Source of the DNA: Sandaracinus amylolyticus | Lineage (GTDB): Bacteria > Myxococcota_A > Polyangia > Polyangiales > Sandaracinaceae | NCBI RefSeq assembly: GCF_021631985.1 | Contig: NZ_CP070225.1 | Location: 186,001-250,000, forward strand | Length of the DNA: 64,000 bases | Direction: 5' to 3' | Part shown: one piece after another, positions 7,956 through 58,566 of the stretch | Layout: every line of letters begins with the position of its first letter | Numbering within the stretch: position 1 is the first letter of the stretch | Position numbers and translations under genes: made by a program | Notes under the pieces: model-generated | What the model was told of the DNA's origin: nothing | What the model saw: only the letters and a program-made list of their open reading frames with translations | Database searches by the model: none

Positions 7956-9470
7956 ATGACGATCCCGTTCTACGTCTCGACCGCCATCCCCTACGTCAAC
8001 GCCGAGCCGCACCTCGGCTTCGCCTACGAGGCCGTCCTCGCCGACGTCGTCGCGCGACACGCGCGCGCTCGCGGGCACGACGTGCGCTTCGTGACCGGCT
8101 CCGACGAGCACAGCCTCAAGAACGTGCTCGCCGCCGAGCGCGCCGGCGTCTCGGTCGCCGAGCTCGTGCGCACCAACGCCGCGCGCTTCGCCGCGCTCCG
8201 CGACACGCTCGATCTCTCCACCGACGTGTTCGTGCGCACCAGCGAGCCGCGTCATCGCGCTGCGGTCGAGCGTCTCTGGCGCGCCCTCGCCGAGCGCGGT
8301 GAGCTCTATCGCGCGCCCTATCGTGGGCTCTATTGCGCAGGCTGCGAGCGCTTCGTCGACGAGGGCGAAGAGCGATGCGACGAGCACCCGCACGCCGCGC
8401 TCGAGCGCATCGAGGAGGACAACTGGTTCCTCCGCCTCTCCGCGCACGGCGAGACCATCGCCCGCGCGATCGACGAAGGACGGCTGCGCATCGAGCCCGA
8501 GGCCCATCGACGCGAAGTGCTCGCGCTCCTGCGCGCCGGCCTGCGCGACGTGAGCGTGTCGCGCTCGGTGCGTCGCGCGCGCGGCTGGGCGATCCCGGTG
8601 CCCGGTGACGACACGCAGGTGATCTGGGTGTGGCTCGACGCGCTCGCGAGCTACGCGTCGGCGATCGGGTACGGCGACGACGACGACGCGTTCCGCACGT
8701 CGTGGCGCGACGCGCGCGAGCGCGTGCACGTGCTCGGCAAGGGCATCCTGCGCTTCCACGCCGCGCTCTGGCCGGCGCTGCTCTCGGCCGCGCGCGAGCC
8801 CTGGCCCACGCGGCTCTTCGTGCACGGCTACGTGACGGTCGAAGGCGCGAAGATCGCGAAGTCGGGCGCGGCTGCGATCTCGCCGTTCGAGCTCGTCGCG
8901 CGCCACGGGACCGACGCGGTGCGCTGGTTCCTGCTGCGCCATCTCCCCGTCGATCGTGACGGCGACTTCTCGCTCGATCGTTTCGTCGCGGTGCACGACG
9001 CGGAGCTCGCGAACCAGCTCGGCAACCTCGTCGCGCGCACCGTCACGCTGATCGAGCGCGCGGGCGGGCACGTCCCGAGCGCGCACGCCGCGCACGAGGG
9101 CGAGCTCGAGCACGCGCTGCGCGCCGAGGTCGATGCGCTCGCGACCGGTGTCGACGAGGCGCTCGATCGCTTCGCGCCGCACGACGCGGCGAGCGCGATC
9201 TCGCGGGTCGTGCTCGCGGCGAACACCTACGCCGATCGCCGCGCGCCGTGGTCGCTCGCCCGCGATCCCGCGGCGCGCGCCGCGCTCGAGACCACGCTGT
9301 TCCATCTCGCCGACGCGCTGCGCGTCGTCGCGATCGTGCTCGCGCCGCTGCTGCCCACGACCGCTCGCGCGATCGCCCACCAGCTCGGCGCCGACGACCT
9401 CGACGCGCTCGACGCGCCGGGGCTGCGCGTGCGTCGAGGCGCGCCGATCTTCCCGCGCATCGCGCGCTGA
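7956..9470 (+). CDS. metG: Methionyl-tRNA synthetase (class I, single-chain, no EMAP tail)
   Basis: A 504-residue enzyme that charges tRNA-Met with methionine in the cytoplasm. The start MTIPFYVSTAIPYVNAEPHLGFAYEAV contains the class I HIGH-type signature as HLGF, followed by FVTGSDEHSLKN, typical of MetRS. The WVWLDALASYASAIGY block and the catalytic KMSKS-type loop (KIAKSG, about residue 305) follow. The helical anticodon-binding domain (NQLGNLVARTVTL... ANTYADRRAPW) runs to a typical end, RRGAPIFPRIAR. A Cys pair in YCAGCERF and a second half (CDEH) represent a reduced zinc knuckle. The C-terminal EMAP/tRNA-binding extension found in some bacteria is absent. Upstream GAGGAG gives a reasonable ribosome-binding site. 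Confidence 0.93.
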   Translation: MTIPFYVSTAIPYVNAEPHLGFAYEAVLADVVARHARARGHDVRFVTGSDEHSLKNVLAAERAGVSVAELVRTNAARFAALRDTLDLSTDVFVRTSEPRHRAAVERLWRALAERGELYRAPYRGLYCAGCERFVDEGEERCDEHPHAALERIEEDNWFLRLSAHGETIARAIDEGRLRIEPEAHRREVLALLRAGLRDVSVSRSVRRARGWAIPVPGDDTQVIWVWLDALASYASAIGYGDDDDAFRTSWRDARERVHVLGKGILRFHAALWPALLSAAREPWPTRLFVHGYVTVEGAKIAKSGAAAISPFELVARHGTDAVRWFLLRHLPVDRDGDFSLDRFVAVHDAELANQLGNLVARTVTLIERAGGHVPSAHAAHEGELEHALRAEVDALATGVDEALDRFAPHDAASAISRVVLAANTYADRRAPWSLARDPAARAALETTLFHLADALRVVAIVLAPLLPTTARAIAHQLGADDLDALDAPGLRVRRGAPIFPRIAR

Positions 9471-45302: not shown

Positions 45303-47260
<1,958 letters not shown>

Positions 47261-47267
<7 letters not shown>

Positions 47268-48007
47268 GCGCTTGCGCGAGCGAGCGCGACTGCGTCGGGC
47301 CCCGCGGGATTGCGCAGCGGCGCCGACGGATCGCTCGCGGCGCGGTACACCGCCTCCGCGACGTCCGCTTCGCTCGTCACGACCGACTGCTGCCCGAACC
47401 CCGCGAGCACGCGCTGCGCGAACGACGCGTACGCATCGGGGATCAGCGTGGCGATGTCGGGCGTGTGGCTCGCGAAGCGCGTGGTGGGGCAGTAGCCGGG
47501 CTCGACCAGACGGACGCGCACGTCGAACGGCTCGAGCTCGAACGCGAGCGACGCGGTGAACCCCTCGATGGCGGTCTTGCTCGCGGTGTAGGCGGCGACG
47601 AGCGGCATCGGCGCGAGCGTCACGCTCGAGGTCACGTTGACGATCACCCCCGAGCGGCGCGCGCGGAAGCGCGGCAACGCCGCTTGCGTCATCGCCATCA
47701 CGCCGAACGTGTTGGTCTCGAACAGCTCGCGCACCAGCGACATCGGCGTGCCCTCGAACGCGCCGAGCGCGCCGATGCCCGCGTTGTTGACGAGCACGTC
47801 GATCGGCCCGGCGGCATCGAGCGCCGCGGCGATGCTCTCGGGCTTCGTCACGTCGAGCGCGAGCACGCGGATGCGCTCCGAGCGCGGCAGCACGTCCTCG
47901 CGCGGCGTGCGCATGGTGGCGACGACGTTCCAGCCGCGTGCGTGGAAGTGGCGCGCGGTCTCGAGGCCGTAGCCGGAAGAGGAACCAGTGATGAGCACGG
48001 TGTTCAT
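47261..48007 (-). CDS. Short-chain dehydrogenase/reductase
   Basis: A 248-residue classical SDR beginning MNTVLITGSSSGYGLETARHFHARGW (cofactor motif TGSSSGYG), followed by VLALDVTKPES, VLVNNAGIGALG, VNVTSSVTLAPMPLVAAYTASKTAIEGFTAS (Ser, Tyr, Lys triad) and VEPGYCPTT. Members with SSSGYG act in ketone or oxidoreductase reactions of unknown substrate. Its end overlaps the HD-GYP stop by seven bases on the other strand, and its start faces the AraC gene, which probably regulates it (the usual AraC/SDR divergent pair). Confidence 0.9.
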
Positions 48008-48102
48008 GCGAAGAGAAGTGGAGCGACCGCGCCCGGCTCACCATCACGGCGAGTCCGGATTCCATTCGCGATCGTCTGCGATGCGTCCGAGACTCCGGCA
48101 CG

Positions 48103-49020
48103 ATGACCTCGAGCTCGAACGACACCGATCCGCTGGCGACCGTCATCTCGCTGCTGCGCCCCCAGGCCGTCCTCTCGAAGCTGATCAGCGGCGCGGGGCG
48201 GTGGAGCGTGCGCTACGCGGCCCACGGCGATCCCGCGTTCTGCCTCGTGCTCGAGGGATCGTGTCTGCTCGATCTGGAGGGCGTCGGCGTGGTCGAGCTC
48301 CGCGAGGGCGACTTCGTCCTCCTGCCCACGACGCCGACCTTCACGCTCGCGAGCGACCTCGGCGTCCGACCGACGCCCGGCGTGCCGGCCGACATCCGCG
48401 AGCTCCGACACGGCACCGCGTCGGGTCCGCCGACGATGCGGATGCTCGGCGGGTACTTCCGATTCGATCGCGCGAACGCCGAGCTCCTCGTCCCGCTCCT
48501 GCCGCCGTTCGTGCACATCCCGCGCGCCGACCCGGGCGCTGCGCGCCTCATGCGGATCGCCGAGCTGATCGACGAGGAGACCGGCGCCGATCGTCCGGGC
48601 CGCGATCTGATGCTCGAGCGGCTCGTCGAGGTGCTGCTCGTCGAGGCGCTCCGGTTCCGCTTCGCGTCGACGGCGGCGGAGGAGCACGGGCTGCTCGCGG
48701 GTCTCGCGGATTCCGCGCTCGCACGGCCGCTCCACCGCATCCACGCCGACGTCGCGCGCCGGTGGACCGTCGCCGAGCTCGCTCGCGTCGCGGGCATGTC
48801 GCGCGCGGTGTTCGCCGAGCGCTTCACGCGCACCGTCGGCATGCCGCCGATGCAGTACGTGCTCGAGTGGCGGATGGCGATCGCGAAAGAGATCCTGCGT
48901 CGCGAGCGTCCGCCGCTCGCCGAGGTGGCCGAGCGCGTCGGGTACCAGTCGGCGAGCGCGTTCAGCACCGCGTTCACGCGCCTCGCGGGCTGCAGCCCCA
49001 GCGAGTTCGCGCGGGCGTAG
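48103..49020 (+). CDS. AraC-family regulator with cupin_6 domain
   Basis: A 305-residue regulator: an N-terminal cupin (LSKLISGAGRWSVRYAAHGDPAFCLVLEGSCLLDLEGVGVVELREGDFVLLPTTPTFTLASD) of the AraC-binding cupin_6 type, then a helical linker, then two helix-turn-helix motifs at residues 205-300 (WTVAELARVAGMSRAVFAERFTRTVGMPPMQYVLEWRMAIAKEILRR and LAEVAERVGYQSASAFSTAFTRLAGCSPSEFAR). Such regulators usually control a neighbouring divergent oxidoreductase gene, here the SDR at 47261-48007. A dyad follows the stop. Confidence 0.92.
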   Translation: MTSSSNDTDPLATVISLLRPQAVLSKLISGAGRWSVRYAAHGDPAFCLVLEGSCLLDLEGVGVVELREGDFVLLPTTPTFTLASDLGVRPTPGVPADIRELRHGTASGPPTMRMLGGYFRFDRANAELLVPLLPPFVHIPRADPGAARLMRIAELIDEETGADRPGRDLMLERLVEVLLVEALRFRFASTAAEEHGLLAGLADSALARPLHRIHADVARRWTVAELARVAGMSRAVFAERFTRTVGMPPMQYVLEWRMAIAKEILRRERPPLAEVAERVGYQSASAFSTAFTRLAGCSPSEFARA

Positions 49021-49028
49021 CGCCGTGA

Positions 49029-49061
49029 GGACCCAGCGTACGTATCGTTCGCACTGGGTCC
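49029..49061 (+). terminator. Hairpin after the AraC gene
   Basis: GGACCCAG (49029-49036) pairs with CTGGGTCC (49054-49061), with a 17-base loop. No T-run follows directly. It may weakly terminate the AraC transcript and separate it from the lipid operon. Confidence 0.45.
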
Positions 49062-49089
49062 GAAAGCGAGAGTGCCAATCGCGGGAGAT

Positions 49090-49110
49090 GGGCGAATATA
49101 ATTCGCTCGT
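49090..49110 (+). promoter_or_regulatory. Candidate -10 promoter element of the lipid-oxidation operon
   Basis: A perfect TATAAT lies at 49097-49102 in an unusually AT-rich patch of the 297-base gap 49021-49317. No -35 box of good quality is present at 17-18 bases upstream (TGCCAA), so an activator may be needed. It points to the tautomerase gene at 49318, leaving a leader of about 200 bases. No believable frame lies within this leader. Confidence 0.45.
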
Positions 49111-49317
49111 TGCGTCGATTTGCCGGATTCGACTCTTTACGTGCCGAGCGCGAGCGCTGTAGTGTTCTAGCCGCGAATGCCCGACGGGGGTGGGCTCTCG
49201 CGTGCACGTCTCGGGCTGAACTCGAGCGATTGCGCGGGAATTCGCCCTCAGATCGCGCGGGCGTGCGCGGCAGTTCATCCAACCGTACTCGGGCTCCTTC
49301 GAGAAGGGGGTAGGGCC

Positions 49318-49707
49318 GTGCCTTATCTGCGAATCGAGTGCAATCGCGCGCTTTCGGACGATCGAGTGGCGCAGCTCCAGAAGGAGCTCACGAATCTGGT
49401 GCACGAGATCAAGGGCGATCCCGTCGCGATGATCTCCACCGTGATCCTGCAGAGCGTGCCGGTGAGCTTCGGCGGAGACCCGTGTGAGCCCAGCTGCATC
49501 GTGACGCTCACGAACGCAGTCATGCCCCCGGCCACGACATCGGCGCTGACTCGTGCGCTGACTGCCGCGCTCGGCGCGTCCTACGGTGTTCCTCCGAATC
49601 GCATGTACATCTTCTTCCAGCAATTCAGCGATCCCACGCTCGTCGGCTGGAACGGAGTGACCTTCGACCAGGTGATCGCGCCGCAGAAGAAGGAGGGCGC
49701 CCGATGA
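49318..49707 (+). CDS. MIF-type tautomerase (macrophage migration inhibitory factor family)
   Basis: From the GTG at 49318 (GGGGG upstream) the 129-residue product reads VPYLRIECNRALSDD; after removal of fMet the N-terminal Pro would be the catalytic base of the tautomerase superfamily. Lys in HEIKGDPVAMIST lies where Lys32 of MIF lies, and the following VPVSFGGDPCEPSCIVTLTNAV, with FGG..EPC, and NRMYIFFQQFSDPTLVGWNGVTF, with the final GWNxxTF, closely follow the MIF pattern. An upstream in-frame start at 49177 would hide the Pro and is rejected. MIF-type proteins isomerise keto-enol and dopachrome-like substrates. It overlaps the lipoxygenase start by four bases (ATGA). Confidence 0.82.
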   Translation: MPYLRIECNRALSDDRVAQLQKELTNLVHEIKGDPVAMISTVILQSVPVSFGGDPCEPSCIVTLTNAVMPPATTSALTRALTAALGASYGVPPNRMYIFFQQFSDPTLVGWNGVTFDQVIAPQKKEGAR

Positions 49708-51638
49708 GCGACTTCGTGAAGCTGGTGCGCGAGCTGGTCGCGTTCGAGGCGCTCGGGCACGCGCCGCTCGACGCGCTGCTCAAGCTGCGCGATCGGCTGC
49801 GCGGCAACGGCGACCGCACCCACACGGTCCGGGGCCGCATCGTGCACCCCGGGGGCAAGCCGATCCGCGGGCTCGTCGTCGAGCTCTGGGACGATCACGT
49901 CGTGCGCGGAGACGACTTCCTCGGCGAGACCGAGACGCAGGAAGACGGCCGCTTCGAGATCGCCTATGCGCCCATGGACGACACGAGCATCGTGCTGCGG
50001 CTCTACGAGCCTCCGCAGGTCTTCTCGTCGGGCGGGCAGCGCCGCGAGCGGCGCGTCCAGATCGAGCGCATCCGCGGCCCGCGCCAGTCGCGTCAGATCG
50101 ACGTCGACCTCGGCGATCACGAGCTCGCGTATTACGAGTACGAGTCGAAGATCGCGTTCCCGTACACGTCGCGAGAGTCGATCCGGCGCGACTTCGTCCC
50201 GGGCGCGGCCGACCGATTCTTCTCCTCGCTCGCGAAGTGGGGCGTGATCCACGACGAGATCGTGCTCGGACTGCGGCTCGGAGCGAAGCCGACGACTGCG
50301 CACATCCAGAGCAAATATCCCAAGACTCGCACGCTCGTCCTCGAGGAGAAGGAGCGGGGCTCGACGCGGAGCGACGCGTACTTCGGGGATCGAATCCTGA
50401 ACGGATTCTTCCCCGCGCGATTCAAGCGCAAGCCCGGCGATCAGTCGGGGCTCCATCTCGCGTTCACCTGGTCGAAGCTCGAGCTGAACGGGCTCATCGA
50501 TCTGCCCGACATGGCCGCGCGCTTCGAGCTGAAGAGCGGACATCTCGTCCCGACCGAGATCCGCCTCGCGTTCCGCGCGCCCGACGGGCTCTCTCCGCCC
50601 GGGAAATACGCGAAGGAGACGACCTACACGGCGGCGGACGGCGCGCGCTGGGCCGAGGCGAAGCGGGTGTTCCGCACGCTCTATTTCGGCGTGTACGGCC
50701 AGCTCTACGGCCACGTCGCGCTCGCGCACTTCAACATGGAGCAGTACGCGATCGCGATGAATCGGAACCTGCGCAAGAGCCCGCTGCGCAGCATCCTGAT
50801 GCCGCACCTCAAAGAGGTGTCGAACATCAACGACAAGGGGCGGACTCTGCTGCTCGGCGCGGACGACGGGCTCTTCGCGCTCGCCAAGCCGATCACGCTG
50901 CCGAGCCAGCTGAAGTGGCTCGAGTCGAACGTGGGTCGCCACGACTGGCACGGATTCTCGCCGCGCACGCCTCTCTCTGCGCATCACGTCTACGCGCAGG
51001 CCGCGCAGCTCTACTGGGAGGCGATCCACGAGTATCTGCGCGTGGTGTTCGCCGAGCGCCGCGCCGAGCTCGAGAGCACGTGGAGCGAGGTGCTCGACTT
51101 CGAGCGCGATCTCCTGGAGCACAGCGTCGCGCTGACCGAGCGCGGCATGGAAGAGGCGGGCGACGAGCTCGCCTGGGACGATCGCAACGAGCTCGCGGTG
51201 GCGCATCCCGGTCGGGCGAAGCGGGCCGACGGGCGGGCTGCCGCGATCACGCCGATCACCGGAGGACGCCCCTTCGGCGACGAGGCGCTCGCGAACCTCC
51301 AGCAGCTCTGTGCGTACTGCATCTTCCACACGACGTTCGTGCACGGGTGGTTCCATCAGGAACAGAACAACGAGTTCGGTGAGATCGAGTACGCCCAGAT
51401 GCTCACCGGAGGCTCGATGAAGCCCGAGGGCGACCCCTCGATCCTCCCCGACGCCGAGCTGCAGAGCCTGGGGCTGCGAGTGACGCACTCGCTGACCGGC
51501 TTCGACTGGGGCTTCCTCACGAAGAACGAGGACGGCGATCTCGATCCGCGATTGATCGAGGCAGTCCGCTCGCGCGCCGATCGGTTCTCCGCGATCGGAT
51601 TCGACATCTCGACCCTGCGTTCGCGCCTCAACAGCTGA
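49704..51638 (+). CDS. Lipoxygenase-family dioxygenase
   Basis: A 644-residue protein, coupled to the tautomerase gene by an ATGA overlap. The N-terminal 120 residues form a beta-sandwich of the carboxypeptidase-regulatory/transthyretin-like type (TVRGRIVHPGGKPIRGLVVELWDDH... GRFEIAY). The catalytic helix has GHVALAHFNMEQYAIAMNRNLRKS, giving His337-x4-His342 and then the MNRNL motif as in plant and animal lipoxygenases (H-x4-H-x3-E-x7-NRxL), followed by LMPHLKEVSNINDKG. The second iron pair is His547-x3-His551 in TTFVHGWFHQEQ. The C-terminal Ile of classical lipoxygenases is not present; the protein ends RSRLNS. Iron-dependent oxygenation of a polyunsaturated fatty acid is the predicted reaction. 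The codon choice is less biased than that of neighbours. Confidence 0.82.
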   Translation: MSDFVKLVRELVAFEALGHAPLDALLKLRDRLRGNGDRTHTVRGRIVHPGGKPIRGLVVELWDDHVVRGDDFLGETETQEDGRFEIAYAPMDDTSIVLRLYEPPQVFSSGGQRRERRVQIERIRGPRQSRQIDVDLGDHELAYYEYESKIAFPYTSRESIRRDFVPGAADRFFSSLAKWGVIHDEIVLGLRLGAKPTTAHIQSKYPKTRTLVLEEKERGSTRSDAYFGDRILNGFFPARFKRKPGDQSGLHLAFTWSKLELNGLIDLPDMAARFELKSGHLVPTEIRLAFRAPDGLSPPGKYAKETTYTAADGARWAEAKRVFRTLYFGVYGQLYGHVALAHFNMEQYAIAMNRNLRKSPLRSILMPHLKEVSNINDKGRTLLLGADDGLFALAKPITLPSQLKWLESNVGRHDWHGFSPRTPLSAHHVYAQAAQLYWEAIHEYLRVVFAERRAELESTWSEVLDFERDLLEHSVALTERGMEEAGDELAWDDRNELAVAHPGRAKRADGRAAAITPITGGRPFGDEALANLQQLCAYCIFHTTFVHGWFHQEQNNEFGEIEYAQMLTGGSMKPEGDPSILPDAELQSLGLRVTHSLTGFDWGFLTKNEDGDLDPRLIEAVRSRADRFSAIGFDISTLRSRLNS

Positions 51639-51655
51639 TGTCGGGAGGAACGAAC

Positions 51656-52105
51656 ATGAGCGCTCCTTTTCCGCTGCCGATCGAGGATCGGCTCGCGCTG
51701 ATGGACGCGATCGCGCGATACAACCTGCTCGCCGATCAGAACGACATCGAGGGATATCTCGAGCTCTTCGCCGACGACGGACGTCTCTTGATGTTCGTGC
51801 CGTGGCAGCCCGCGCCGATCGTCGACGTGAAGGGCAAGACCACGCTGCGCGCGGCGCTGCACGAGGTGCTCTCGCGCCGTGAGAAGCCGATCAAGATCTT
51901 CCAGACGCACCCGGTGATCGAGGGCATCGACGCGCGCACCGCGCGGACGCAGACCGAGTTCTTCGGGTTCTGGCCGCGCACCCAGGACGAGCCTCCGACG
52001 CTGCGGCTCGGCGCCTGGTACGTCGACATCTGGACGAAGAGCGGCAGTCGCTGGCTGATCTCGGAGCGCCGAGAGCAACCGGCGAGCGCGCCCCTCGCGC
52101 ACTGA
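51656..52105 (+). CDS. SnoaL/NTF2-fold small protein
   Basis: ATG 51656 is preferred over ATG 51638 because GGGAGGAA lies six bases upstream; 149 residues. The sequence IEDRLALMDAIARYNLLADQNDIEGYLELFADDGRLLMF is the typical start of a SnoaL-like domain, and FQTHPVIEGIDARTARTQTEFFGFW and GAWYVDIWTKSGSRWLISERR give the beta-sheet of the cone-shaped fold. Members are cyclases, isomerases, epoxide hydrolases or non-enzymatic; no catalytic residues can be assigned. In this operon a role on an oxidised lipid product is an inference from context. It follows the lipoxygenase stop by 17 bases and touches the lipase start. Confidence 0.78.
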   Translation: MSAPFPLPIEDRLALMDAIARYNLLADQNDIEGYLELFADDGRLLMFVPWQPAPIVDVKGKTTLRAALHEVLSRREKPIKIFQTHPVIEGIDARTARTQTEFFGFWPRTQDEPPTLRLGAWYVDIWTKSGSRWLISERREQPASAPLAH

Positions 52106-53415
52106 TGGGTGCATCGATGGCGTACGACGTGCGGCAGACGATGCTGGTGCTCGGCTTCCTCTCGTATCTCGGGTTCGACGAGATCGAGCGGGGCGTGAAG
52201 GGCGACACGCACGTGTTTCGCCTGCTGCAGCGGGCGCTCGATGCGGTCCCGGGGCTCGACCGGCGCTGGAAGCTGGTGTGGGGCCCGGCGAGCCGGCGCT
52301 TCGCGTTCACGATCTTCGCGCAGAACCTGATGTTCGTGGTGCGCGACGAGCGCGACCCGACGCACCTCGTGGTCGTCGTGCGCGGGACGAACCCGGTCTC
52401 GCCGGTGAACTGGCTCGTCGAGGACTTCTCGATCGCGCGTCTCGAGCGCTGGCCCTATGCGCACGACGACGCGAGCGCGCGCGTCTCGATGGGGACGCTG
52501 ATCGGGCTCGGGGAGCTGCAGGCGATGCGTCCCGGCGCGGGCCTTCCGGGATCCGGTGCGTCGCTGCACGAGCTGTTGATCGACGAGGTGCGCGCCGCGC
52601 GCGGCGCGCGCGTGAAGGTGTCGGTGGTGGGCCACAGCCTCGGCGGCGCGCTCGCGCCCGCGGTCGGGCTGTGGCTCGAGGACACGCGCACCGCCTCCGA
52701 CGTGCCCGGGCTGCGGCCCTGGGATCCCGAGCGACGCGCCGACGTGCACGTGTTCTCGTTCGGCGGGCCGACACCCGGCAATCGTGGGTTCGCCGCGCGC
52801 TACGACGCGCTGCTCGGCGCGCGCACCCATCGGGTGTGGAATCCGCTCGATCCCGTGCCGCACGGGTGGGAGCGCGAGACGGTGGCGCGACTGCCGCGTC
52901 TCTACGAGCCGAAGATCCGCGTCGATGTGCTGATCGATCTGGTGTTCCGCGTCACCGGGCATCTCTCGCACGACGGCGACTATCGCCACGTGACGGGGAG
53001 CGCTCCGTCGATCGAGGGCGCGCGGCTCCATCCGAGCTTCGCGCGCTTCTGGACGCAGATGCTCTATCAACACTCGCTCGCGTATCTCGATCTCTTCGGT
53101 GTGCTCGGCCACGTCCCGCTCGCCGATCACCTGCCGTGGTCGCCCGCGATGCGTGCGCGCGTGGCGGAGGTCGAGGGCGAGGCGGTCGTGCTGGAGCGCG
53201 AGGTCGCGAGCGAGATCGAGCGCGACGAGGTGCGCGTGGCGGGCCGCATCGCGCGAGGGCTCTCGCGCTTGGTGCAGATCCCCGCGTCGGTCCTGGTGCA
53301 TGCGCTGCCTGCGCACCTTCCGCTCGCGTCGTTGATGCTGCGGGGTGCGCATCACGAGGCGCAGCCGCGTGTCGAAGCACCGGTGGTGAGCGGCGCGACG
53401 CCTCGCGCAGCGTGA
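52105..53415 (+). CDS. Lipase class 3 family protein
   Basis: A 436-residue alpha/beta-hydrolase; its ATG shares one base with the preceding stop (TGATG). The motif VSVVGHSLGGALAPAVGLWL has the nucleophile Ser178 (GHSLGG), the typical pentapeptide of fungal-type class 3 lipases. FVVRDERDPTHLVVVVRGTNPVSPVNWLVEDF gives the oxyanion-hole strand, and RVWNPLDPVPHGW supplies the acid-His region (D and H). No signal peptide is present, so it acts inside the cell or peripherally on membranes. The C-terminal 90 residues are a helical, acidic-to-basic extension (VEGEAVVLEREVASEIERDEVRVAGRIARG). Release of fatty acid from lipid is the likely role. Confidence 0.85.
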   Translation: MGASMAYDVRQTMLVLGFLSYLGFDEIERGVKGDTHVFRLLQRALDAVPGLDRRWKLVWGPASRRFAFTIFAQNLMFVVRDERDPTHLVVVVRGTNPVSPVNWLVEDFSIARLERWPYAHDDASARVSMGTLIGLGELQAMRPGAGLPGSGASLHELLIDEVRAARGARVKVSVVGHSLGGALAPAVGLWLEDTRTASDVPGLRPWDPERRADVHVFSFGGPTPGNRGFAARYDALLGARTHRVWNPLDPVPHGWERETVARLPRLYEPKIRVDVLIDLVFRVTGHLSHDGDYRHVTGSAPSIEGARLHPSFARFWTQMLYQHSLAYLDLFGVLGHVPLADHLPWSPAMRARVAEVEGEAVVLEREVASEIERDEVRVAGRIARGLSRLVQIPASVLVHALPAHLPLASLMLRGAHHEAQPRVEAPVVSGATPRAA

Positions 53416-53427
53416 GGAGCAGACGTG

Positions 53428-53682
53428 ATGTGGCGAAGGCTCCTCCGGCTCGCACACAGCCCGATCGTCGACGCGACGATCGGCGTCGTGATGGTCGGCA
53501 CCGCGCTGATCGAGATCGCCGGCGAGTGGCTCGAGCCGCTCGTCGGCGGTGCGATCGGCGCGGCGCACGGGCTCTTCGTCGTCGGCGTGGTGCACACGTT
53601 CAAAGCGCTCCCCGGGCTCGTCGAGGGCGCGGACAAGATCGAGCGCGCGAGAGAGATCGAGCGAGAGCGCGACGCTGCGTAG
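53428..53682 (+). CDS. Small two-span membrane protein
   Basis: ATG 53428 is preferred to GTG 53425 as GAGGAG lies eight bases upstream; 84 residues. It begins MWRRLLRLAHSPIVDATIGVVMVGTALIEIAGEW and continues GGAIGAAHGLFVVGVVHTFKALPGLVEGADKIERAREIERERDAA. Two hydrophobic spans (about residues 13-31 and 38-57) and a charged C-terminal helix are visible. It lies in the lipid operon, 12 bases after the lipase gene and 13 bases before the patatin gene, so it may anchor or recruit one of these enzymes to the membrane. I do not recognise a family. Confidence 0.72.
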   Translation: MWRRLLRLAHSPIVDATIGVVMVGTALIEIAGEWLEPLVGGAIGAAHGLFVVGVVHTFKALPGLVEGADKIERAREIERERDAA

Positions 53683-53695
53683 CGGGGAGGGGCGA

Positions 53696-54835
53696 ATGGC
53701 TCGCACGTTCGACGTGGTGTTCGAGGGCGGTGGCGCGCGCGGGCTCGTGCTGAACGGCGCGATCCAGCGGCTCGAGGAAGACGGCCACCGCATGCGCCGT
53801 CTCGTCGGGACGAGCGCGGGCGCGATCGCGGCGTCGCTCGTCGCGGCGGGGTTCAGCGGAGACGAGCTCGTGGAGATGAGCCGCGCGCGTCGTGCCGACG
53901 GACTGCCGGAGTTCGCCGACTACGTGAGCGAGCCCGTGCTGCCCGACGCGGAAGTCGTGCGTCGCTCGGGGATCTACAGCGCGATCATGGACGCGGAGCG
54001 CAAGCTGCACGTGCCCGCGGGGATCGCCGACACGATCGCGAGGCACCTCGGTGCGTGGCTCGCGCACGTGCCCGGTCTGCGCAGCGCGTACTCGTTCGTC
54101 GAGCACGGCGGCGTGCACAGCGGCGACGGCTTCACCGGGTGGCTCGTGCGGACGCTCGATCACAAGCGCACGGGTCTGTCTCGCGTGACGCTCGGCGAGC
54201 TGCACGCGCGCACCGGCCGGCACCTCACGGTGATCGCGAGCGACAGCACCGCGGCGCGCATGTTGGTGCTCAACCACGTGACCGCGCCCGACGTGCCGTT
54301 GGTGTCGGCGGTGCGGATGTCGATGAGCATCCCGCTCTTCTTCGACGAGGTGATCTGGCGCCGCGAGTGGGGCCACTACCTCGGCGAGGACGTGACGGGC
54401 CACGTCGTGGTCGACGGAGGTCTGCTCTCGAACTTCCCGCTGCGCTTCGTGTTGCCCGACGCCGCGGCGTACTCGCGCGCGTTCATGGGCGACCCCGGCC
54501 CCGAGCCCGCGGAGGCGCTCGGTCTCTTCATCGATCAGAAGCTCGACGTGCCCGGGGCACCGCCGTCGCGTCACTCCGCGTCGAGCCCGATCTTCGCGGA
54601 GCTGGGCCACACCAAGGTCGCCGCGCGCGTGCTGAGCCTCGTGGAGACGATGCTCGACGGCAACGACGACACCGTCGAGGAAGCACACGAGGACGCGATC
54701 TGCCGGTTGCCGGCGAAGAGCTATTTCGCGACCGAGTTCCACATGGAGCGCGAGCGCGTGGACCCGCTGATCGAAGCCGGAAGACGCGCGATGGAGGCAC
54801 ACCTCGAGTCGCGAGGTCGAGCCGCCGCGGCGTGA
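53696..54835 (+). CDS. Patatin-like phospholipase
   Basis: A 379-residue protein with GGGGAGGGG as ribosome-binding site. FDVVFEGGGARGLVLNGAIQRLEEDG is the oxyanion-hole motif (GGGxRG), VGTSAGAIAASLVAAG carries the nucleophile Ser40 (G-x-S-x-G), and HVVVDGGLLSNFP gives Asp240 of the Ser-Asp dyad. The order and spacing are those of patatin phospholipases A. It has no signal peptide and no secretion domain. It closes the lipid operon and would release acyl chains from phospholipids for oxygenation by the lipoxygenase. Confidence 0.9.
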   Translation: MARTFDVVFEGGGARGLVLNGAIQRLEEDGHRMRRLVGTSAGAIAASLVAAGFSGDELVEMSRARRADGLPEFADYVSEPVLPDAEVVRRSGIYSAIMDAERKLHVPAGIADTIARHLGAWLAHVPGLRSAYSFVEHGGVHSGDGFTGWLVRTLDHKRTGLSRVTLGELHARTGRHLTVIASDSTAARMLVLNHVTAPDVPLVSAVRMSMSIPLFFDEVIWRREWGHYLGEDVTGHVVVDGGLLSNFPLRFVLPDAAAYSRAFMGDPGPEPAEALGLFIDQKLDVPGAPPSRHSASSPIFAELGHTKVAARVLSLVETMLDGNDDTVEEAHEDAICRLPAKSYFATEFHMERERVDPLIEAGRRAMEAHLESRGRAAAA

Positions 54836-55322
54836 TCGCGGGTGCGTTCAGTGAAACGGCGGCAGGACGAGTCGCTCGCCGGCTTGCGCGAGGTCGATGA
54901 CGACCTGCGGATGCCACGGTGTTCGCAGGCTCAATCGGCCCGGGCGACGAAGCGCAGCTCACTCGAGCCCGGTGCGAAGCGCGAGCCCGATCAACTCGGT
55001 GCGATGCGCGAAGCGCGAGCCCGTCCGGTTCGAACGAGCCCGCAGAGCGGGCTCGCTCGAACCTCTTCGCCTCCAAAAAAACAAGCGCGGGGCTCCTCTC
55101 CCCGCGCGGCCGAAGCCTCACCAGCAGGGGCGGGGGGCAGGGGGTCCGAGCGCTTCCGCAGCGGCCCACCAGTCGCCCCGAGAGCACCGCGAGCGACGAC
55201 GTCGCCCGTCACCAACCCGCGCACCGCAAGCGACCCGCGAGGCTTAGCGAGGCCCCCCTGCCCCCCGCCCCGCACCGAAGCCTTCCCCCGCGCGGCCCCG
55301 AATCGCCGACACTCACCACCGA
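54836..55322. other. Long non-coding stretch with hairpins, G-runs and a minus-strand terminator
   Basis: The 487 bases between the patatin gene and the multidomain gene have no believable frame. They contain a hairpin at 55027-55063 (GGTTCGA, then CGAGCCCGC, with their complements around an AGA loop). A perfect minus-strand intrinsic terminator lies at 55072-55107: stem GCGCGGGG/CCCCGCGC, T-run TTGTTTTTTT on the minus strand. A long-range inverted repeat, GGGGCGGGGGGCAGGGGG at 55127-55144, is matched perfectly by its complement at 55254-55271. A minus-strand RNA from near 55300 to 55072 is possible. Confidence 0.6.
55072..55107 (-). terminator. Intrinsic terminator on the minus strand without an obvious gene
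   Basis: CCCCGCGC/GCGCGGGG with a seven-base loop is followed on the minus strand by TTGTTTTTTTGG. No minus-strand protein gene lies to its right, as genes from 55323 on are all on the plus strand. It may end a small RNA. Confidence 0.6.
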
Positions 55323-57645
55323 ATGCCCCGCGCAGTCCTGATCACCCAGTGTATCCAGCGCGACTTCGTCGAGCCGATCGCGCCGCACGCCGCGCCGCCG
55401 AACCTGCTCCACGTCGGTCATCGCGAGGCGTCGCGCCTCCTCGGCGCCGATCCCGCGAACGGCCCGCTCGCGCAGCTGATGCAGTGGGCCCGCGCTCGCG
55501 ATCCGCGCGAGCTCGCGATCCTGCACGTGCGCGACTGGCACGATCCCACCGATCCCGCGCAGCGCGCGCACCTCGACACCTTCGGCTCGCACTGCGTGCG
55601 CGGCACGCGCGGCGCCGAGCTCGTGCTCGATCTCGAGCAGAGCGCGCGCGAGGACGAGCGCTTCGTCGACGCGATCGGGCTCGCCGACGTGCAGGAGACC
55701 TCGCTCGCGAACCACCTCCGCGAGCTCCTCGCGGGCGAAGAGGACCCGCGCGTCGCCGTCATCGGCGTATGGACCGACGCGAAGATCACGTTCCTCCTCT
55801 ACGACCTCCGCACCCGCCTCGGGCTCCGTTCTCTCGCGACCTCGAGCGCGCTCACCGCGAGCGCGTCGCGCGCCGCGCATTTCCACTCGCTCGAACAGCT
55901 CCGTCGCGTGCTCGCGGTCGACGTCTTCGACTCGGTCGGCGAGCTCGCGGACTGGCTGCTCCCCCGACGCGCGCTTCGCGTCGTCGCGCCGCGCGCGCAC
56001 GTCCTCGATCGCGATCGAGGGCGCGCCGCTCGGCGACGAGGAGCGCGCGATCGTCTCGCACCTCTATCGCGAGAGCGCGAAGCTCACGCTCGCGTCGCTC
56101 GGCGGTGGGTTCTCGGGCGCGCGCGTGTTCGCCGCGGAGAGCGAGGACGCGCTCGGTCATCGCCAGGCGCCCTCGGTGCTCAAGATCGGTCCGCGCGCGC
56201 TGATCGGCGAGGAGCGCGCTGCGTTCGAGCGCGTCGAGCCGATCCTCGGCAACGACGCGCCGCGGCTGCTCGGCGTGGTCGATCACGATGCGCTCGGTGG
56301 CTTGCGCTGGTCGTACGCCGCGATGGGTGGTCGACGCGTGCGCACGCTGAAGTCGCTCGTCGAGGGCGATGCGCCCGTCGAGCGCATCGAGCGCGTGCTC
56401 TCGGTCGCGCTCGAAGAGGTGCTCGGCCGCTTCTACGCGGCGGCGCGCTACGAGCCGCTCCCGCTGCTCGCGTACTACCGCTTCTCTCCCACCCACGCGC
56501 GCTCGGTCGCGAAGAACGCCCGCGCCGTCGCATCACCCGACGACGCGCGCGACGTCGACGACCTGGTCGCGTTCTACGAGCACGGCCTCGACGAGCTCGG
56601 CAGCACGCCCGGCGAGCACCACTACGTCTCGTACGTGCACGGCGATCTCAACGGCGCGAACGTGCTCGTCGACGAGCGCGAGAACGTGTGGCTGATCGAC
56701 TTCTTCCACACCAAGCGCGGCCACGTGCTCAACGACGTGGTGAAGCTCGAGAACGATCTCCTCTACCTCTTCACGCGCATCGACGACGAGCGCGCGCTCG
56801 CGATCGGGCGCGAGATGATCGACGCGCTCTACGGCGTGCAGGATCTCCGCGCGCCGCTCGGCCCTTCGCCCGCGTCGGTCGCCGCGATCCCCGCGCTCGC
56901 GCGGGCCTGGGAGATCCTGCGCGTGCTGCGTCGCATCGGCGCCTCGCTGGTGCGCGAGGATCGCGATCCCACGCAGCTCCACGTCGCCGCTCTGCGCTAC
57001 GCCGCGCACACGCTCTCGTTCGACGAAGCGTCGCCCCTCCAGAAGCGGCTCGCGCTGCACGCCGCGGCCTCGCATGCCCGCGCCATCCTCGACGACGCAC
57101 GCCGCGATCGCACGCTGCGGGTCGACCTCGTCGCGCTTCCCTCGTCTCGCAGCGGCCGGCTCGGGCTCACGATCTGTCCCGGCCGCCTCGATCGTGATCG
57201 CGATCTCGACGCCGATCTCGACACCCTGTGCACGATGGGCACGCGCACCCTCGTCACGCTCCTCGGCGCGCCCGAGCTCGCGTGGGCCGGCGTGCCCGAT
57301 CTCGCGGCGCGCGCCGCGGATCACGGCCTCGAGACCATCGGCTTCCCGATCCGCGATCAGGGCGCGCCCGCCGAGGCCGACGTGCGCGCGCTCTGCCGCG
57401 TGATCGACGAGCGCCTCGCGCGGGGCGAGACCGTCGTCGTGCACTGCATGGGCGGGCTCGGACGCAGCGGGCTGGTCGCCGCGTGTGTGCTGATCGACCT
57501 CGGTGTCGACCCCGAGCGCGCCCTGGCCGAGGTGCGCCGGGCCCGCGGTCCGCGGGCCGTCGAGAGCGACGCGCAAGAGGTGTTCGTCCGTACTTATGCT
57601 GCGGGCGAGCACACGAGAAGAGACAGCGCGACCGAGTCTCGCTAG
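55323..57645 (+). pseudogene. Isochorismatase-like / kinase-like / CDKN3-like phosphatase fusion, with apparent +1 indel
   Basis: Three domains in two frames. Residues 1-215 from ATG 55323 are an isochorismatase-like fold (AVLITQCIQRDFVEPI... AVIGVWTDAKITFLLYDLRTRLG). The catalytic Asp is Cys10 and the nucleophilic Cys is Lys154, so it should be inactive. At the CCCCC run 55961-55965 the frame shifts; with four C the chain continues from GELADWLLP into DARFASSRRART... LTLASLGGGFSGARVF. The second domain is an aminoglycoside/choline-kinase-like fold (VLKIGP, YVHGDLNGANVLVD, VWLIDFFHTKRGH). The third resembles cyclin-dependent kinase inhibitor 3: VVVHCMGGLGRSGLVAACVLIDLGVDPERALAEVRRARG, with the C-x5-R phosphatase loop. 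The cysteine synthase gene starts 12 bases after. A start at 56125 for the second part would cut its glycine loop and is unlikely. Confidence 0.75.
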
Positions 57646-57657
57646 AGTGGGCGCGAC

Positions 57658-58566
57658 GTGGACGATCGCATCTACGATGGCGTGCTCGATCTGGTCGGCC
57701 GGACTCCGCTCCTCCGATTGCCGCGTCTGTCGCCGAAGAACGGCGCAGAGGTGTGCGGCAAGCTCGAGCGCAACAACCCCGCGGGCAGCGTGAAGGATCG
57801 CCCCGCGCTCGAGATGATCCTCGCCGCCGAGCGCGCCGGGGAGATCTCCGAGGGCGCGACGATCATCGAGGCGACCAGCGGCAACACCGGGATCAGCCTC
57901 GCGATGATCGCGTCGGTGCGCGGCTATCGTTGCGTGCTCGTGATGCCCGAGGACATGAGCATGGCGCGCCGCCAGATCCTGCGTGCGTACGGCGCCGAGG
58001 TCGTGCTCACGCCGGCGCAGGAGGGCATGGCGGGCGCGGTCGAGCGCGCCGAGCGCATCCTCGCCGAGACGCAGAACGCGATCATGCCGAAGCAGTTCCA
58101 GAACGTGGCGAACCCCGAGTCGCACGAGCGTGGGACGGCCGAGGAGATCTGGCGTGCGACGAAGGGCGAGATCGACGTGTTCGTCGCGGGCGTCGGCACC
58201 GGGGGCACGCTCACCGGCATCGCGCGATTGCTGAAGAGCCGCCGCCCCGAGGTGCGCGTCGTCGCGGTCGAGCCGCGCGGCAGCGCGGTGCTCTCGGGCG
58301 GCAAGCCCGGCTTGCACGGCATCCAGGGCCTCGGCGCCGGCTTCATCCCCGAGGTGCTCGATCGATCGATGATCGACGAGGTGATCACGGTGACCGACCT
58401 CGCCGCCGATCGCATGACGCGACGGCTCGCGCGCGAAGAAGGTCTGCTGCTCGGGCCCAGCTCCGGCGCGAACGTGCACGCCGCGGTGGAGGTCGCGCGA
58501 CGGCTGCGACCGGGACAGCGCGTCGTCACGATCCTGTGCGACGGCGGCGAGCGGTACCTGTGCTGA
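57658..58566 (+). CDS. cysK: Cysteine synthase (O-acetylserine sulfhydrylase family)
   Basis: A 302-residue PLP enzyme from a GTG at 57658. MDDRIYDGVLDLVGRTPLLRL is the family start; NNPAGSVKDRPALEMI carries the PLP-binding Lys; EATSGNTGISLAMIA is the substrate loop; VFVAGVGTGGTLTGIARLLK binds phosphate; GLGAGFIPEVLDRSMIDEVI and LLLGPSSGANVHAAVEVA complete the fold. It makes L-cysteine from O-acetylserine and sulfide, or a related beta-replacement. CysK and CysM types are not separated with certainty. The gene lies 12 bases after the fusion gene and is followed after 52 bases by the TPR/receiver gene. Confidence 0.93.
   Translation: MDDRIYDGVLDLVGRTPLLRLPRLSPKNGAEVCGKLERNNPAGSVKDRPALEMILAAERAGEISEGATIIEATSGNTGISLAMIASVRGYRCVLVMPEDMSMARRQILRAYGAEVVLTPAQEGMAGAVERAERILAETQNAIMPKQFQNVANPESHERGTAEEIWRATKGEIDVFVAGVGTGGTLTGIARLLKSRRPEVRVVAVEPRGSAVLSGGKPGLHGIQGLGAGFIPEVLDRSMIDEVITVTDLAADRMTRRLAREEGLLLGPSSGANVHAAVEVARRLRPGQRVVTILCDGGERYLC

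Follow-up and report, generated by a model that had tools for sequence, protein, structure and literature searches.

A tautomerase–lipoxygenase operon of Sandaracinus amylolyticus as a candidate oxylipin cassette

For most of the known bacterial lipoxygenases (LOXs), the physiological products and partner enzymes have yet to be established. An operon of Sandaracinus amylolyticus raises the question of what such an enzyme might do. In the window, the 64,000-nucleotide stretch analysed here (contig NZ_CP070225.1, positions 186,001 to 250,000), positions 49318–54835 are filled by six co-directional plus-strand open reading frames (ORFs), encoding a MIF-family tautomerase (T), a LOX, a SnoaL-fold protein, a class 3 lipase, a small membrane protein and a patatin-like phospholipase. 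Could these proteins release, oxidise and rearrange a lipid, and which of them would act on the LOX product? We find that T is also paired with a LOX of the same unusual type in four cyanobacteria. We put the probability at roughly two in three (0.65) that the operon, judged from its sequence, is a bacterial oxylipin cassette with T and the SnoaL-fold protein in place of a haem hydroperoxide-processing enzyme.

The genes are tightly packed. The T and LOX genes overlap by 4 bases, the LOX and SnoaL genes by 1 (a gap of 17 from the alternative SnoaL start at 51656) and the SnoaL and lipase genes by 1, while gaps of 12 and 13 bases flank the membrane protein gene on its lipase and patatin sides. 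A sequence-only reading of the same DNA had proposed these six genes, and ORF and Pfam analysis bore out their number, strand, spacing and families, the small membrane protein (84 aa) having no Pfam family above cut-off. The motifs it had listed were all present: Pro-1 of T, H-x4-H and H-x3-H of the LOX, GHSLGG of the lipase, and S40/D240 of the patatin. Two features of the LOX went beyond that reading, a C-terminal Ser and a transthyretin-like region at residues 50–88.

The tautomerase–lipoxygenase pair

The LOX gene (49704..51638, plus strand) encodes a protein whose Pfam Lipoxygenase match (PF00305) is short, covering residues 277–387 only with 29.0 bits against a cut-off of 23.6. The assignment is nevertheless secure, because residues 49–643 align to PDB 5ek8 with a phmmer E value of 7.6e-103. 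We take 5ek8 to be CspLOX1 from Cyanothece PCC 8801, since its residue numbers Tyr360, Ile397 and Gly401 agree with those given for this 9R-LOX in PMC5437038. By sequence, the window LOX is classed as a CspLOX1 (9R-LOX) type enzyme, sharing with CspLOX1 the alignment through the transthyretin-like region (23.0 bits, below the cut-off of 24.9), the same three His and the Gly at the stereo site. No PLAT domain was matched in it by Pfam.

The iron site was compared across 32 LOXs, namely those ORFs of 38 surveyed loci that score above 400 bits with the LOX profile A1. The window ligands are H337-x4-H342 and H547-x3-H551, and H337, H342 and H547 are conserved in 32 of 32. Position 551 is His in all five T-linked LOXs, while the other 27 have Asn in 24 cases, as does 5ek8, and His in three. 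All 32 chains end in one alignment column, which places the terminal carboxylate of the window LOX at the iron-ligand column, and there the five T-linked enzymes all carry Ser, against Ile in 23, Val in 2 and Leu in 2 of the remainder; the CspLOX1-type relatives L095–L097 end in Ile. The T-linked LOXs thus depart from the customary terminal Ile or Val, the residue being usually Ile and very occasionally Val according to a 2026 review (PMC13059375). At the Gly/Ala stereo site all five have Gly as in CspLOX1, with G379 of the window corresponding to Gly401, whereas the other 27 have Ala in 20 and Gly in 7. In a maximum-likelihood tree that leaves out the two terminal residues, the window LOX groups with its four T-linked cyanobacterial counterparts in one clade with support 100/100; with those residues included, the approximate likelihood ratio test (SH-aLRT) also gives 100. 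The window LOX sits on a long branch (1.41) and is 40–41% identical to these four enzymes.

T itself (49318..49707, plus strand, GTG start) matches Pfam MIF (PF01187) with 33.8 bits against 22, and the four-member T profile A5 matches the solved MIF 1uiz (E 9.2e-14). The protein begins M-P, and Pro follows the start directly in all five LOX-linked T proteins. The active-site loop is distinctive. In the column of the MIF-specific lysine, which we take to be Lys32 in MIF numbering, T holds Asp (KGDP against GKP), and this change argues for a substrate unlike the model substrates of MIF. All five LOX-linked T proteins carry KGDP and RMYIFF, whereas five other cyanobacterial MIFs have a GKP or SKP loop; window T scores 87–94 bits with the T proteins of the four cyanobacterial loci and 30–48 bits with those five. 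By these sequence measures, the LOX-linked T proteins form a divergent MIF subfamily.

T lies directly upstream of a Ser-terminated LOX on the same strand in all five known loci, which are the window, L014 (a Synechococcales metagenome-assembled genome), L015 (Scytonematopsis contorta), L016 (Phormidesmis priestleyi) and L094 (genome G589). The overlap seen in the window is replaced by gaps of 23–151 bases in the four cyanobacteria. In L014 and L016 the pair is followed by an SRPBCC-like gene, a short-chain dehydrogenase (SDR) gene and a SnoaL-like gene. L015 has the SRPBCC-like and SnoaL-like parts fused in one protein, and L094 has a SnoaL-like gene and a dehydrogenase ORF of only 84 aa. The SRPBCC-like label is tentative, as Polyketide_cyc2 scores 15.8 bits against a cut-off of 27.4 in L015 and gives no match in L016, and that half of the L015 protein is modelled with low confidence. 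L014 and L094 also have a hydrolase-like gene, whose protein was read as a lipase from the motifs LLVHGIGE and LSHSLG seen by eye.

A SnoaL-like gene or domain thus lies downstream of T-LOX in every cyanobacterial locus. The window SnoaL gene (51638..52105, plus strand) probably starts at 51656, a better start 6 bases after GGGAGGA; its product matches SnoaL_4 (PF13577, NTF2 fold) with 53.4 bits against 24, and its best PDB match is 2rgq (E 1.8e-4). The SnoaL-like half of the L015 protein is modelled with a predicted local distance difference test score (pLDDT) mostly of 70–90, its best PDB matches are of NTF2/SnoaL fold and include 3b8l and 2rgq, and the proteins of the other three loci are 48–54% identical to it.

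How strict the pairing is was assessed by genome searches in which the best 3 (LOX), 5 (patatin), 10 (T in cyanobacteria) or, in one further search, 6 candidates per genome were scored, making all counts lower bounds. At least 17 of 386 cyanobacterial genomes match the LOX profile at 1e-10. The C-terminus was read in the nine near full-length matches, the other eight being partial or weak, and two of the nine end in Ser (G490 and G589). These same two genomes are the only ones of the 386 in which T was found at E ≤ 1e-20, each time adjoining the Ser-terminated LOX; G490 helped build both the T and the LOX profiles, and G589 is an independent match. A co-occurrence value of 1.3e-5 for T and LOX in cyanobacteria is partly circular because of G490 and carries no weight here. 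Among 240 Myxococcota genomes only the host (G000) has T at E ≤ 1e-10. A selection of 22 genomes comprised 17 that have a LOX of this type and five relatives of the host; among them T exceeds 200 bits only in G000 and G589, other MIFs of 41–65 bits occur in three cyanobacteria, and the remainder give nothing at 0.001. The genes, their families, their conserved linkage, the LOX clade and the ligand residues are direct observations.

Haem enzymes and other partners of lipoxygenase genes

We then compared the partners of T-linked LOXs with those of LOXs elsewhere in a survey of 38 loci, using a reach of 6 kb and a single representative query per partner family. Four loci repeat others (L018 repeats L008, L029 L010, L030 L011 and L009 L025), and each such pair was counted once; L123, L125 and L129 entered through the patatin search, which biases the patatin counts. 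For GC-rich loci the gene calls came from a codon-usage script, which mis-set the T start. A contig search with the window LOX alone gave no match, and one with a five-member LOX alignment gave 19 loci.

Haem enzymes are frequent neighbours of LOX genes without T. Five of the six cyanobacterial CspLOX1-type loci (L095–L100) have a Tle1-like phospholipase (PF09994 with 269 bits in L095) and five of six have a P450, where the window has T and SnoaL instead. All 13 loci of one myxobacterial clade (L017, L019–L028, L031 and L032, from Corallococcus, Pyxidicoccus, Archangium, Sorangium and Myxococcaceae) have a second LOX and a P450, and queries for T, SnoaL and patatin came back empty within 6 kb; L063, another member of this clade, lies on a contig of 4.6 kb and shows neither second LOX nor P450. 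Paired LOX genes in myxobacteria are likewise known from M. xanthus and M. fulvus (LOX1/LOX2), the M. fulvus enzyme being an arachidonate 12S-LOX according to PMC6612559. Overall, within the 6-kb reach, 21 of the 33 loci that lack T have a P450 or catalase-like gene, and none of the five with T has one. For the window LOX this was checked with four representative queries, and Pfam found no such gene among eight flanking proteins either. The flanks of two cyanobacterial loci are short (2.7 kb before T in L014, 3.1 kb after the LOX in L016), and ten further neighbours in L014, L015 and L094 include no P450 or catalase-like enzyme by Pfam. From 21 of 33 against 0 of 5, the replacement of the usual haem hydroperoxide-processing enzyme by T and SnoaL is suggestive only, the sample being small and the loci not independent.

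A separation of oxygenase and processing enzyme is known from Nostoc punctiforme, where a 10S-dioxygenase acts with a catalase-related hydroperoxide lyase (PMC13049297). The window is predicted to share this layout of a fatty-acid oxygenase plus a separate hydroperoxide-processing enzyme. The Nostoc enzymes, however, are a haem dioxygenase and a catalase-related lyase, whereas the window has a non-haem LOX with partners that bear no likeness to haem enzymes.

Three surveyed loci show other arrangements. In L101 (7179–10893; G520, sampled among cyanobacteria) a patatin, a putative membrane protein of 266 aa and a LOX stand in a row. In L125 (4291–9922; G433) a LOX, a catalase-like protein below the Pfam cut-off and a patatin do so, which recalls the logic of coral allene oxide synthase. 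In L008 (9142–16726; G010) a LOX is the last gene after two large AAA+ proteins, ClpB-like by eye, an unusual partnership.

Lipid release, substrate supply and surroundings

The operon also carries candidates for releasing the LOX substrate. The lipase (52105..53415, plus strand) matches Lipase_3 (PF01764) with 52.7 bits against 22, has its GxSxG as GHSLGG, and over residues 5–342 matches the solved lipase 2ory (E 9.1e-51). The patatin (53696..54835, plus strand) matches PF01734 with 89.6 bits against 27.7; the GxSxG and DGG elements of its dyad are present, and all three members of alignment A2 have S40 and D240. Between the two lies the gene for the membrane protein (53428..53682, plus strand), which by eye has two hydrophobic segments.

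Patatin and membrane protein recur with LOX genes in other Myxococcota. Patatin loci in the survey are L010, L011, L065, L101, L123, L125, L129 and the window. The window patatin scores 229–265 bits with patatins adjoining LOX in G097, G099 and G250, and the membrane protein scores 43 bits with positions 9437–9733 of L010 and 31 bits with 13891–14142 of L065. The order in G250 (L065) is LOX, patatin, LOX and membrane protein on one strand; G097 (L010) has LOX, patatin and LOX with the membrane protein behind a divergent LOX, its gene on the opposite strand, and G099 (L011) has LOX, patatin and LOX on a short contig.

Profile A2 matches at least 13 of 377 Myxococcota genomes at 1e-30, the LOX and patatin searches being taken, from equal numbers and handles, to cover the same 377. 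Twelve of the 13 are among the 64 LOX-positive genomes (hypergeometric 2.6e-9), and 11 are among a strict set of 56 (1.9e-8) that leaves out eight genomes matching only the N-terminal transthyretin-like region (G217, G222, G338, G378, G405, G409, G433 and G473), although G433 does carry a LOX near its patatin. The LOX lies within about 3 kb of the patatin in seven of the 13 (G000, G009, G097, G099, G250, G433 and G453). In G453, a fusion of Polyketide_cyc2, C2 and Lipoxygenase domains adjoins a window-type patatin (L123, 2920–6589), and a short ORF close to them looks SnoaL-like by eye.

Polyunsaturated fatty acids (PUFAs) would be needed as substrate, and the sequence-only reading had pointed out that some myxobacteria make them. 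A supply in the host is plausible from the genome sequence, which has one PfaA-type PUFA synthase (1633 bits with its in-frame neighbours against a cut-off of 1010, which none of 14 control genomes exceeded) and 11 matches to the desaturase family, a family that includes other oxidases. In Sorangium cellulosum So ce26 a PfaC-like synthase with ketosynthase, four FabA-like and acyltransferase domains lies directly before an acyltransferase gene and a LOX, tying LOXs of this type to PUFA making. The full So ce26 stretch (L025, 362–17194 of the locus, NZ_CP012673) continues with a hydrolase-like gene (by eye), a P450 and a second LOX, and is possibly a PUFA-to-oxylipin supercluster.

Upstream of the operon, a Cupin_6/AraC-type protein (48103..49020, plus strand; Cupin_6 122.8 and HTH_18 76.7 bits) is encoded 297 bases before T and is a possible operon regulator; with a divergent SDR gene it occupies 47261–49020, and the two might be regulator and partner. 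The eight flanking proteins are, by Pfam, D-Ala ligase-like, PhoH, HD/GAF, isochorismatase-like, kinase/phosphatase-like, PALP, TPR and FMN dehydrogenase proteins. No sigma-70 promoter was found, other promoter types lying outside the search, and window positions 46000–58000 gave no Rfam match at gathering level. A phage or plasmid origin was rejected, as five operon proteins had no PHROG match (the LOX lay outside that comparison), a search of PLSDB found relatives of neither T nor the L015 LOX, and six exact peptide patterns found none of the window LOX in IMG/VR.

Elsewhere in the host genome, a second LOX with a strong Pfam score adjoins an FAD-linked ALO-type oxidase (L012, 4054–10636; C1:8883053–8889635), and the distance to a fatty acid desaturase is about 4 kb. 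A third, very divergent LOX-like protein (L067, 9003–10772; C1 about 7148500–7150270) scores 127 bits with the LOX profile and has no Pfam match at 0.01. On contig C2, at about 46000–84500, large open frames of up to 3649 aa with ketosynthase-type matches are probably a polyketide cluster.

A proposed pathway and its alternatives

For substrate, product, order of steps and role we infer the following. The patatin and the class 3 lipase would free PUFAs from glycerolipids. The inner membrane is the probable site, and the small membrane protein a putative anchor there. The LOX would convert the freed PUFAs to hydroperoxides. Its kinship to CspLOX1 and its Gly379 predict that these are in the R configuration, and 9R where the chain is linoleate-like. 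As position and co-occurrence suggest, the next step may fall to T, using Pro-1 as its base, and to the SnoaL-fold protein, which would isomerise, dehydrate or cyclise the hydroperoxide, or a ketone or aldehyde derived from it, by haem-free chemistry where sister LOX loci may use a P450 or catalase-like enzyme. An intracellular lipid signal or modified membrane lipid seems likelier than a secreted weapon, because inspection by eye, with no prediction program run, showed no secretion signal in any of the six proteins. A narrower proposal is more tentative, at somewhat less than even odds: that T of the KGDP-loop type takes the LOX product itself, a hydroperoxide or oxo-lipid, as substrate and, together with SnoaL-fold partners (joined by SDR partners in cyanobacteria), yields rearranged or cyclic lipid signals in a haem-free oxylipin branch.

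Several observations weigh against the oxylipin cassette. The exact six-gene set has one known instance among the loci read, the window itself, and the case is built on sequence. Neither a LOX of this type nor T is present in the two other genomes of the host genus, and no homologue of the window lipase was detected in the four cyanobacterial T-LOX loci, where the hydrolase-like gene of L014 and L094 has no convincing Pfam match and an unusable model (pLDDT 36.7). The cyanobacterial SnoaL-like protein has no Pfam match, and its hhalign probability with the window protein is 7.9%, a shared fold at best. The chemistry of MIF may not carry over to T given Asp for Lys32, and a C-terminal Ser falls outside the description of LOXs in PMC13059375. 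Of the 33 loci without T, 12 likewise yielded no haem enzyme, and elsewhere several of the matches counted as haem enzymes are weak: the catalase-like match of L125 (21.7 bits, cut-off 25) and the P450-like match of L129 (18.4 bits, cut-off 22.8) are below cut-off, and L066 has no Pfam match. No LOX was seen near the patatin in six of the 13 genomes (G431, G344, G464, G328, G238 and G408), four of which (G431, G328, G238 and G408) have it on contigs of 3.8–8.2 kb, and the hypergeometric values ignore kinship among genomes.

The strongest alternative draws on the way of life of the group, as myxobacteria prey on other microbes. The lipase, patatin and LOX might break down lipids of prey or of the cell itself, with T and SnoaL detoxifying the aldehydes and ketones of peroxidation; two lipolytic genes in one operon would suit this, and nutrient mobilisation is among the possible roles listed for the M. 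fulvus LOX (PMC6612559). We consider it unlikely, though the best of the rivals, since no secretion signal was noticed by eye, T and LOX are also paired in cyanobacteria, and a general detoxifier would not need to belong to a T subfamily found only beside one LOX subfamily.

Less probable still is a role in membrane remodelling or stress response, in which the LOX would act on esterified lipids, as some human LOXs can on complex ester lipids (PMC13246792), and patatin and lipase would clear oxidised acyl chains for repair with no dedicated messenger. The recurrence of patatin and membrane protein with LOX in Myxococcota would fit such a cycle, but it leaves unexplained both the strict T-LOX pairing and the SnoaL-like and SDR genes of the cyanobacterial operons.

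That the six genes are chance neighbours, unrelated in function, is very improbable. The exact set has been seen once and orthology of the window and cyanobacterial SnoaL proteins is not supported by hhalign, but starts and stops overlap, and the reading is disfavoured by conserved linkage, of T with LOX in two phyla and of patatin or membrane protein with LOX in other Myxococcota. An anti-phage or conflict system with the patatin as effector is the least probable of all and was rejected, as the patatin N-terminus is only weakly similar to defence phospholipases (PADLOC 20.0–24.5 bits; NCBIfam 19–22 bits, cut-offs 200–400) and its 41 bits with the effector model VpdC (1000 needed) reflect general patatin likeness, while the other five proteins have no PADLOC match at E 0.001, the operon has no nucleotidyltransferase or sensor gene, and co-occurrence with LOX points to lipid oxidation.

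The oxylipin cassette therefore remains our preferred reading. The sequence-only reading had likened it to plant jasmonate and animal eicosanoid routes, which follow the same logic of lipase, LOX, then isomerase or cyclase. That likeness is one of logic and not of demonstrated homology in the downstream steps: neither a P450 nor a catalase-like gene was found beside the window LOX (no search aimed specifically at allene oxide cyclase or animal mediator synthases was made), and we know of no established place for MIF and SnoaL folds in those routes. Its inference of a complete route from membrane lipid to rearranged messengers goes further than the genes show. Its expectation that LOX, MIF tautomerase and patatin would co-occur elsewhere came true in pieces, as T-LOX in four cyanobacteria and as LOX, patatin and membrane protein in other Myxococcota; the six genes together were seen in no other locus read.

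The component families are known; what is new is that T pairs with a Ser-terminated LOX, together with the haem-free cassette that this suggests, and no T-LOX operon appears in the titles and abstract openings of the literature searched, a body that leaves most subscription journals outside. The Ser-terminated clade is naturally suited to testing the importance of the terminal Ile customary in LOXs. The natural substrate of the tautomerase site of MIF is unsettled, and the T-LOX pairing offers a concrete candidate substrate class for a protein of this family. To our knowledge no metabolic role of a MIF relative in a lipid-mediator pathway has been described, and the role proposed here, if true, would be the first. 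A gene set with its own lipid release, oxidation and rearrangement makes the question of LOX products and partners testable using a few purified proteins.

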